Program-made: the position numbers and the translations under genes
Part shown: piece by piece, positions 2,486 to 7,389 of the stretch
Numbering within the stretch: position 1 is the first letter of the stretch
Layout: each line of letters starts with the position of its first letter
Notes under the pieces: model-generated
Databases searched by the model: none
Told to the model about the DNA's origin: nothing
The model's input: only the letters and a program-made list of their open reading frames with translations
NCBI GenBank assembly: GCA_021161405.1
Contig: JAGHAR010000002.1
Location: 1-10,988 of the forward strand
Source: Candidatus Iainarchaeum sp.
GTDB lineage: Archaea > Iainarchaeota > Iainarchaeia > Iainarchaeales > JAGHAR01
DNA length: 10,988 nt
Direction of reading: 5' to 3'

Positions 2486-3145
2486 TCAACCGAATTCAAG
2501 AAATTTTATTGCAAGCACGTTTGCATTCTCATCCAATTCAATAAGAGCAAAGCGGCCTTCTTTAATCGCGGCAACATTTACACACATTACATTCTCTATA
2601 ACCTTGCTTCCTGTTGATTCGTGTACATGGCCAAATATATGAAGCTTTGGTTTTGTTTTCTTGATGAATTCTCTTATGGCTGTAGAACCTATGTTTGTTC
2701 CATTTGCGGTATAGTCAAGAACATTCTTTGGGGGAGAATGGCTTACGAAAATTTCAAGAGGAGTGCAGCTTTCAAGTGCACGCAGTTTATTGCTGAGTTC
2801 TTTTTCTGTAAAAATAACTTCGCCAACATCTCCAGCAGAGCCGCTAGCTCCAGCAATTCTGAATCCATCAAATTCTGTACATCTAAAATTTAGAGAACAA
2901 TTGAATTCCTCTAGGGCCTTTGCTACTTCCCATCTATCAGCATTCCCAACTACTGCAAACAATCTCTCCGATATAACTTTTATGGAGGAGAGAATCTGCA
3001 CTGCATCTTCATAGCTGCCATAATGAGTTAAATCCCCACAGACAAACAATGCGTCTGGCTGTATATTTTGCTCAGCCAAAAACTGCTTGAATTTTTCGAG
3101 CTTTGCAAGATCTCCGTGAATGTCCGAAACAGCAACCAAAAGCAT
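2486..3145 (-). CDS. Calcineurin-like metallophosphoesterase (Icc-related)
   Basis: 219 residues with all metal-binding motifs of the calcineurin-like phosphoesterase fold in order: DIH (8-10), GDLTHYG (37-43), GNAD (67-70), SHSPP with His136, and GHVH (172-175). The C-terminal pattern NIGSTAIREFI before GHVHES resembles the archaeal Icc-related predicted phosphoesterases (COG2129 type). A two-metal centre hydrolysing a phosphomonoester or phosphodiester is expected; the substrate cannot be told from sequence. GNAD replaces the more usual GNHD/GNHE, a substitution also seen as GNCD in relatives, so this is probably not a defect. ATG at 3145 starts the conserved N-terminal strand directly. First gene of a unit with taw3, divergent from the secreted protein across 52 bases. 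Confidence 0.9.
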   Translation of the reverse strand: MLLVAVSDIHGDLAKLEKFKQFLAEQNIQPDALFVCGDLTHYGSYEDAVQILSSIKVISERLFAVVGNADRWEVAKALEEFNCSLNFRCTEFDGFRIAGASGSAGDVGEVIFTEKELSNKLRALESCTPLEIFVSHSPPKNVLDYTANGTNIGSTAIREFIKKTKPKLHIFGHVHESTGSKVIENVMCVNVAAIKEGRFALIELDENANVLAIKFLEFG

Positions 3146-3167
3146 AATTAATTCGCTCTACAAAGGA

Positions 3168-3177
3168 TTTTTATTTA
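3168..3177. promoter_or_regulatory. Central AT box between two divergent starts
   Basis: TTTTTATTTA on the plus strand lies at -30 to -21 from the ATG at 3198. Its complement TAAATAAAAA lies at -32 to -23 from the opposite ATG at 3145. It is the only suitable TATA-like element in the 52-base gap, so it may serve both leaderless genes. Inferred from spacing. Confidence 0.5.
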
Positions 3178-3197
3178 ATTCCTTAAACCAATAGTAT

Positions 3198-3989
3198 ATG
3201 CCAAATATGCATAACACAATTTCGGTAATGCTGATATTTTCTCTTTTGCTTGTTAGTGTAAACGCTATTGCCATAATAGAGCCAATTGCTGTTAGCATAG
3301 AGAATAACCAGGAATTAATAATAGGAAACGCATCCCCGGGGCAAACTATAAAGTTTGTTATAGCAAGAATCTGTGAAGGAGTAGAGTATGAAAGCATCAA
3401 TGTTACAAATATTCCGGAAGATTGGCATTACAGCATAGAAAAAACAACAGAGTTTTTCTCGTTAACAATAACAATTCCAAGCAGCGTTAGCGAGAGAATG
3501 CAGAGAATAGGCATAGAATTGGAAGCAAAGCAGCCACTAAAACAAGAGAAGGGATTCATTATTATAAACATAAGAAAAAATCTGCTTGACTTTGCCGCAA
3601 GGGAATTAACAAAGGAAACAGCAGTAAATAAAGAGGCCTGCTATAAATTTACAGCAATAAACAATTCAATAGCAAACGAAGGAATTGGCTTTAGTACAAG
3701 TTTGCCTGCAAACTGGGTAAAACAGAGCAAAGCAATTGCTAAAAAAAATTCAGCAACAGATTTTAGTGTTTGCGTAATTCCAAGAGCCAGCGGCGTAACA
3801 AGATTTAAAATAAAGCTATTTGGTAAGGATTCTTTGGCTAGCAAAGAATTTGAATTGGTTGTAAAGGCAAAACCAGAATTTTGGGCAAAGATATTGATGC
3901 CTATCTATGCGATGCCGATAATGCTTCCAAGCATGATGCAGAGCTATCTGTTAAATGCTCTGGCTGTGGCTATTTTTAAATTCGCATAA
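3198..3989 (+). CDS. Secreted, membrane-anchored beta-rich protein of unknown function
   Basis: I do not recognise a specific family. The 263-residue product begins with a Sec-type signal peptide (hydrophobic core about residues 9-22, plausible cleavage near VNA-IA). About 205 residues of alternating beta-strand character follow, in what looks like two domains: ASPGQTIKFVIARICEG to about 125, then AARELTKETAVNKEACYKF to about 228. The pattern resembles the NEW3/Ig-like modules of archaeal surface proteins. A methionine-rich hydrophobic C-terminus (about 232-263) would act as a membrane anchor. Three N-glycosylation sequons (NAS, NVT, NNS) and three cysteines lie in the extracellular part. Leaderless ATG at 3198. 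Its last codons contain the elp3 promoter. A surface or cell-envelope role is inference from topology. Confidence 0.75.
   Translation: MPNMHNTISVMLIFSLLLVSVNAIAIIEPIAVSIENNQELIIGNASPGQTIKFVIARICEGVEYESINVTNIPEDWHYSIEKTTEFFSLTITIPSSVSERMQRIGIELEAKQPLKQEKGFIIINIRKNLLDFAARELTKETAVNKEACYKFTAINNSIANEGIGFSTSLPANWVKQSKAIAKKNSATDFSVCVIPRASGVTRFKIKLFGKDSLASKEFELVVKAKPEFWAKILMPIYAMPIMLPSMMQSYLLNALAVAIFKFA
3973..3980 (+). promoter_or_regulatory. TATA-like box for elp3, inside the preceding gene
   Basis: TTTTTAAA at -27 to -20 from the elp3 ATG at 4000, embedded in the final codons (Ile-Phe-Lys-Phe) of the secreted-protein gene. It supports the ATG at 4000 over the longer in-frame start at 3955, which lies upstream of this box. 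Confidence 0.5.
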
Positions 3990-5964: not shown

Positions 5965-6315
5965 ATGGGAGATGTGCTTTTAGCTACAGTTGGAGCAGGC
6001 AGAGGGAGCTGGGGGCATATCGCAAGATTAATTAATGAAAGACAATGGGAGAGAGTAATTTTAATAGGGACAGAATGGGTAAAGCAGAATTTCAAAGTAG
6101 ATAAGGAAGTGGAATGGCTTCTTGTTGCATCTCGCTCTGGTTTTGAAGGCCTGAAAACAGCAATACTCGAAAGAATTCCGGACAACGCAAATATATTTGT
6201 AAGTATTGCCTCTGGCACTGGCAGAGAGCATGCAGCTCTGCTTGCAGCTCTAAAGGAGAAACAAAAGGATTACAAGATAGTCCTCCTAACAAAAAATGGT
6301 ATAACAGAGATATAG
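5965..6315 (+). CDS. Small Rossmann-like protein resembling a lone CARF domain
   Basis: 116 residues; I do not recognise a named family with certainty. Visible features are an N-terminal strand and Gly-rich loop (VLLATVGAGRGSWGHIARLI), a second strand RVILIGTEWV, then ANIFVSIASGTGREHAALLAAL and a final strand YKIVLLTKNG. The strand/Gly-loop start and the late Ser-Gly-Thr-Gly-x-x-x-x-Ala-Leu helix resemble the ligand-binding CARF fold of CRISPR-associated Csa3/Csm6/Csx1 and ring nucleases, where the corresponding motif is a TGGTK-like loop. No effector nuclease, HTH or transmembrane part is fused, and there is no CRISPR array or cas gene in the window. The gene has its own TATA box and its TAG stop abuts the pelA stop on the other strand. 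A nucleotide-binding role is inference. Confidence 0.6.
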   Translation: MGDVLLATVGAGRGSWGHIARLINERQWERVILIGTEWVKQNFKVDKEVEWLLVASRSGFEGLKTAILERIPDNANIFVSIASGTGREHAALLAALKEKQKDYKIVLLTKNGITEI

Positions 6316-7338: not shown

Positions 7339-7359
7339 AAGTTCTTTGTCTTTAAAACA

Positions 7360-7367
7360 TTTTTAAA
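7360..7367. promoter_or_regulatory. TATA-like box shared by pelA and abce1
   Basis: TTTTTAAA on the plus strand lies at -30 to -23 from the abce1 ATG (7390). Its complement TTTAAAAA lies at -29 to -22 from the pelA ATG (7338). The box sits at the midpoint of the 51-base gap. A second AT stretch (TTTAAAAC, 7351-7358) is at -39 to -32 from abce1 and would be too close to pelA. Sharing is inferred from geometry. Confidence 0.55.
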
Positions 7368-7389
7368 CTCTTTTAGAGGAGTTTTTTTC

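Follow-up and report, generated by a model that had tools for sequence, protein, structure and literature searches.

The genes for Pelota (pelA) and ABCE1 (abce1), the proteins that separate stalled ribosomes, diverge from a 51-base spacer in the window (the whole stretch of 10,988 nucleotides analyzed here, a complete contig, C11, of a genome of 668,527 bases in 139 contigs with a completeness of 76.2%). The best explanation of this spacer and its orthologs is a conserved bidirectional BRE-TATA-BRE core promoter common to both genes, which would give two near-leaderless mRNAs; the comparison of sequences makes this reading fairly probable. Gene order, spacing, box and flanks of the box were all found to recur across families.

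In such a promoter, TBP would bind the near-palindromic box either way round, the direction being set by TFB, seated on the A-rich element of one side or the other. RNA polymerase would start approximately 27–30 bp off, at or close to each start codon, producing leaderless mRNAs of pelA and, at least ancestrally, of abce1. Only one pre-initiation complex at a time would occupy the box, so that both genes would share its occupancy; the limit of one TBP/TFB orientation at a time comes from known biochemistry and is extended here to this promoter. The positions of the start sites, the service of both genes by one box, the mutual exclusion and any co-regulation are what we infer from the recurring arrangement. 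Coupled supply of Pelota and ABCE1, or competition for TBP, as proposed in an earlier note on this DNA, might follow from it.

The pelA–abce1 Locus

The features of the locus are collected in Table 1. Pfam domains support the identities of both divergent genes: all the features of the ABCE1 family were present above the cut-off, and in the pelA product eRF1_2, at 21 bits, fell short of its cut-off of 27.1 while the other two domains exceeded theirs. Reading of the letters bore out the start codons given in the earlier note (7338 on the minus strand, 7390 on the plus strand) and the 51 bases between them, which correspond to an ATG-to-ATG distance of 52. No alternative start was found for pelA in the 40 codons examined; for abce1, the same search gave, besides the ATG, only one in-frame start, at −81, inside pelA. 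The closest named match among genome contigs was the ‘Candidatus Diapherotrites archaeon’ record L063, with 55% identity of ABCE1.

Table 1. Features of the pelA–abce1 region in the window
Feature	Position	Strand	Remarks
pelA (Pelota), 340 aa	6316..7338	minus	Pfam eRF1_1 and eRF1_3 above cut-off
abce1 (ABCE1/RLI), 590 aa	7390..9162	plus	Pfam Fer4_RLI, Fer4, ABC_tran ×2
TATA-like box in the center, TTTTTAAA / TTTAAAAA, candidate TBP site for both genes	7360..7367		recurs in 11/13 short orthologous spacers
Second TATA-like box TTTAAAA, rival abce1 box	7351..7357	plus	at −39 from abce1; TTTAWA match
Inverted repeat TTTAAAA-CAT-TTTTAAA, exact, 7 bp	7351..7367		read from letters
A-rich flank AAAACA, proposed abce1 BRE	7354..7359	plus	A at −5 in 10/10 aligned spacers; overlaps second box
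T-rich flank CTCTTTT (minus-strand AAAAGAG), proposed pelA BRE	7368..7374	minus	T at +9..+11
GAGGAG, Shine-Dalgarno-like	7376..7381	plus	8 bases ahead of abce1 ATG

The central box TTTTTAAA does lie where it had been placed, at −30 to −23 for abce1 and at −29 to −22 for pelA; the first base of its TTTAAA core, a 6/6 match, is at −28 from abce1 and −29 from pelA. The description of the box as single held only in part. The box is present, but it overlaps one arm of an inverted repeat, TTTTAAA at 7361–7367 being the exact reverse complement of the TTTAAAA upstream with CAT between them, and the other arm is itself a second TATA-like box. The GAGGAG that had been noted 8 bases ahead of the abce1 ATG was likewise seen in the letters, and it places GAGG at −14 and GGAG at −12. 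Near the start it arose in 3 of 5000 shuffles of the spacer, so it is probably not due to chance.

Taken on its own, the window is weak evidence for a shared box, because a TTTAWA inside −32 to −26 of both starts was obtained in 246 of 5000 shuffles of its spacer, and a looser criterion was satisfied in 1167. The looser criterion called a box shared when its scores in both directions reached at least 2.5 and the two centers lay within one base; it was fixed after the first spacer scores had been seen and uses a TATA matrix set by hand from general knowledge. Searches of six sources, the window and the f15 loci L197 and L198 included, gave no Rfam match at the gathering score.

Another divergent pair is found at 3145–3198 of the window, with a metallophosphoesterase-like gene (minus) and a 263-aa ORF (plus) separated by a 52-bp gap, in which no TTTAWA box was seen. 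A 116-aa ORF at 5965–6315 is convergent to pelA and had no Pfam match at E 0.001.

Gene Order in the Phylum

The relatives found first numbered 52, all from one taxonomic order, so that ‘close relatives’ denotes members of the same order, none of the same genus or family. The survey was then based on 87 genomes of the phylum. Both genes were present in 65 of them at the cut-offs used (one pelA match being taken from an earlier search), and one or both lacked a match in the remaining 22. In these 65 the genes were arranged head-to-head within approximately 2 kb in 39, in tandem with abce1 first in 17, on separate contigs in eight and far apart in one. Genome G030, in which abce1 is cut by the contig end, proved to be head-to-head too and was added later, which brought the head-to-head genomes to 40 of the 66 that have both genes; they belong to 15 families, two of which (f21 and f23) lie outside the order. 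In the locus named Woesearchaeota (L064), no Pelota was recognized by eye among six listed ORFs of at least 120 aa. The recurrence of the head-to-head order and of the central box, the check called for in the earlier note, was thus positive, in 40 of 66 genomes and in 11 of the 13 shortest spacers, respectively.

The tandem arrangement, seen in other families of the phylum, likewise leaves pelA and abce1 as neighbors and differs from the one described here in that both genes lie on one strand, abce1 first. Its gaps measured 12–44 bp in seven of the 17 genomes, in which the pair looks operon-like, and 129–723 bp in the other ten.

Pelota was found, and ABCE1 was not, in six genomes: G012, G026, G033 and G040, which are all four members of family f13, G018 (f19) and G008 (f9). 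Searches for ABCE1 in them returned either nothing or incomplete matches with identities of at most about 35%, as for ordinary ABC ATPases; no Fer4_RLI above the cut-off and no bacterial RRF were detected. ABCE1 is otherwise regarded as near-universal in archaea. Completeness is 99% for G012 (a single contig), 93% for G018 and 60–78% for the other four, and the absence of ABCE1 from the six may be a real loss.

One Best Central Box in Most Short Spacers

Gaps were refined to the likely start codons in all 40 head-to-head genomes. Thirteen spacers were no longer than 67 bp (51, 52, 52, 52, 53, 53, 53, 54, 56, 57, 58, 60 and 67 bp), and the eight of 51–54 bp are spread over seven families. One central box was the best for both starts in 11 of the 13, representing nine families and including the window; only G035 and G027 lacked it by the looser criterion. 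Shuffling of the same spacers gave a mean of 2.4 and a maximum of 7 such cases in 2000 rounds, with the reservation that the spacers are related and shuffles ignore kinship. A Shine-Dalgarno-like word ahead of abce1 was found in the window alone, the other 12 short spacers (G030 inspected by eye) having none. In the relatives, both genes are taken to be served by a single, symmetric core promoter, which would give two leaderless mRNAs.

The flanks of the box were initially looked at in one-direction promoters, and this test was dropped since A was only weakly enriched upstream of the box; the flanks were therefore tested on orthologs anchored on the box. Ten shared-box spacers were used (G030, found afterwards, was left out), nine of which MAFFT also aligned on the box, with G005 out of register. 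A occupied −5 in 10/10 spacers, and T occupied +9, +10 and +11 in 8/10, 9/10 and 8/10, −5 and +10 being mirror positions around the box. The aligned spacers hence carry an A-rich element on each side, on opposite strands, as expected of a BRE-TATA-BRE promoter. As controls served 46 promoters with an upstream neighbor on the same strand, drawn in samples of ten. The T measure was 2.50/3 versus 1.22/3 in the controls, and none of 20,000 samples reached 2.50. The A side differed from the controls modestly (2.10 versus 1.57; 0.02), and a wider upstream purine measure did not differ (0.11). The T side alone is not telling, because it should be strong in every spacer whose box serves pelA; both flanks together around one box speak for its sharing.

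Alternative Readings of the Spacer

Positions of boxes and Shine-Dalgarno-like words were calibrated on 60 N-free contigs (343 kb) of this genome, after nine N-only contigs of 69 had been dropped; 347 genes were called, with starts from a simple codon model of our own and without reference annotation. Ahead of 96 divergent-first genes, TTTAWA peaked at −32 to −27 from the start codon, where the box of a leaderless mRNA should lie; the peak of Shine-Dalgarno-like words was at −13 to −9. The central box falls within the TTTAWA peak for both genes. pelA looks leaderless, with its box at −29 and no Shine-Dalgarno-like word, whereas abce1 has a box at a fitting distance but also GAGG and GGAG. The claim of a shared, near-symmetric promoter is partly supported; the recurring order and central box favor it, and it is qualified in the window by the presence of two boxes and of a Shine-Dalgarno-like sequence, and the abce1 side there is uncertain on account of the latter and of the better forward box at −39.

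Two overlapping promoters could accordingly exist in the window. pelA would be leaderless from the central box, and abce1 would be transcribed from the TTTAAAA at 7351–7357, its short leader carrying GAGGAG in whole or in part. On this reading, a single shared box is the state of the relatives, and it has changed here. We regard this reading as possible, though doubtful. In the abce1 direction the −39 box scores 6.9 and the central box 4.4 (hand-set matrix), and the rarity of GAGGAG among shuffles points the same way. In three genomes (this one, G004 and G001; the two genes of the window excluded), the divergent-first genes with a Shine-Dalgarno-like word had TTTAWA at −55 to −36 in 17/69 cases and at −32 to −26 in only 3/69, compared with 50/289 and 58/289 for genes without such a word. 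Given 3/69 versus 58/289, GAGGAG and the better forward box disfavor a leaderless abce1 in the window. On the other hand, as many as 49 of the 69 genes with the word had no TTTAWA anywhere at −55 to −24, and the A-run of the second box is also the site expected for the abce1 BRE of a shared promoter. Moreover, the box-to-start distance of the leaderless genes in this genome, 27–31 bases, would put the start at about −12 to −8, inside GAGGAG, and the leader would then contain only part of the motif, so that this reading has a difficulty of its own. A shift of abce1 to a box of its own with a Shine-Dalgarno leader is nevertheless a serious possibility for this species, in which abce1 may use the 7351–7357 box also or instead.

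The arrangement could also be a matter of geometry only: where leaderless divergent genes of an AT-rich genome lie as close together as they can, their boxes would fall on one spot by chance or economy, so that there would be two ordinary promoters and the sharing would be unselected. We consider this quite improbable, even if several counts agree with it. Gaps of 50–54 bp make up 8 of the 48 divergent gaps in this genome, pelA–abce1 counted; the looser criterion is often satisfied in shuffles of the window spacer, as given above; and among other divergent pairs of three genomes it was satisfied in 7/19 with gaps of 48–60 bp, where shuffles predicted 4.10. The corresponding numbers were 0/11 for 35–47 bp (0.51 predicted), 1/13 for 61–70 bp (0.49) and 0/29 for 71–100 bp (0.00). 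The proportion of 11/13 at pelA–abce1 exceeds that of 7/19 at the other pairs, and a spacing of 51–54 bp has been kept in seven families (8/13 genomes), even though little else in the spacer aligns. Gaps of 50–54 bp were also few in G004 (3/67, one of them pelA–abce1) and G001 (1/65), for which reason their excess is not claimed as general.

Three further divergent pairs of this genome, L151 2392/2444, L145 562/614 and L109 11530/11585, are separated by 51, 51 and 54 bp, respectively, and in each of them one TTTAWA box lies within −31 to −27 of both starts. Since these pairs look alike, the putative shared-box architecture is not peculiar to pelA–abce1, and the notable part is its recurrence at that pair across families.

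Relation to Known Bidirectional Promoters

Bidirectional promoters in bacteria and archaea are reportedly a subject of work by Warman and others. The promoter type proposed for pelA and abce1 is one known from other archaea, and here the putative signal recurs at this pair in many related families. The available part of the Pyrococcus furiosus study (PMC6640164) describes bidirectional BRE-TATA-BRE promoters with TTTAAA, AAA upstream and TTT downstream, mapped start sites separated by 49–50 bp and in vitro transcription in both directions. The motif was derived there on head-to-tail genes, the second product being antisense RNA held to be non-functional, and bidirectional transcription is viewed in that part mainly as a source of such RNA. 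The likeness to the spacers described here lies in the near-symmetric TTTAAA, the A-rich and T-rich flanks and the spacing of about 50 bp between starts (52 between the ATGs in the window). The differences are that both products here would be mRNAs of functional partners, with the layout found in nine families, and that the start sites were mapped in P. furiosus and are predicted from sequence here. According to the accessible text of a review, TFB on the BRE sets the direction of transcription (PMC7289017).

In Salmonella and E. coli, bidirectional promoters rely on the −10 element, and their starts are separated by 18 bp, as described in the available parts of two papers (PMC10268837, PMC12825309). 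Divergent initiation at one symmetric element, with one binding event precluding the other, would be common to both cases; the promoter considered here would work through TBP and TFB. No paper on the pelA–abce1 pair in archaea, or on such a promoter there, was found among the open-licence matches listed, and the part of PMC6514570 available names no archaeal pelA–abce1 gene pair.

A shared box kept in nine families between co-acting partners would, if true, be a case in which the symmetry looks selected. The pelA–abce1 spacer would also be a compact, testable promoter for how the orientation of TFB splits transcription between two genes. An extended version of the shared-promoter reading, which we find rather unlikely, is that one TBP/TFB site inherited from an early ancestor of the phylum acts as an either-or switch tying the supply of Pelota to that of ABCE1. 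The lineages without it would retain the abce1–pelA tandem, and selection would act on co-expression itself.

Wider Head-to-Head Spacers

Of the 27 wider spacers, 21 (75–313 bp) were scored for a shared box, and not one of these 21 had it. Nine of the 11 spacers of 75–204 bp retained a box scoring at least 2.5 at −36 to −24 from pelA, which suggests that pelA mostly holds its box distance and that the abce1 side drifts.

Small ORFs were also noted in head-to-head spacers. In L199–L202 and L209 (G075, G076, G077, G080 and G043), the stretch from pelA to abce1 contains a hydrophobic ORF of about 63–68 aa in the same direction as abce1, and a similar one was seen by eye in G019, G036, G029 and G002. 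In two f15 spacers, L197 (G068) and L198 (G067), an upstream piece, M-A/V-R-I-A-V, resembles the start of abce1 by eye; it is followed by a hairpin-rich stretch and then by the aligned abce1 start, and in G068 the piece lies 52 bases from pelA.
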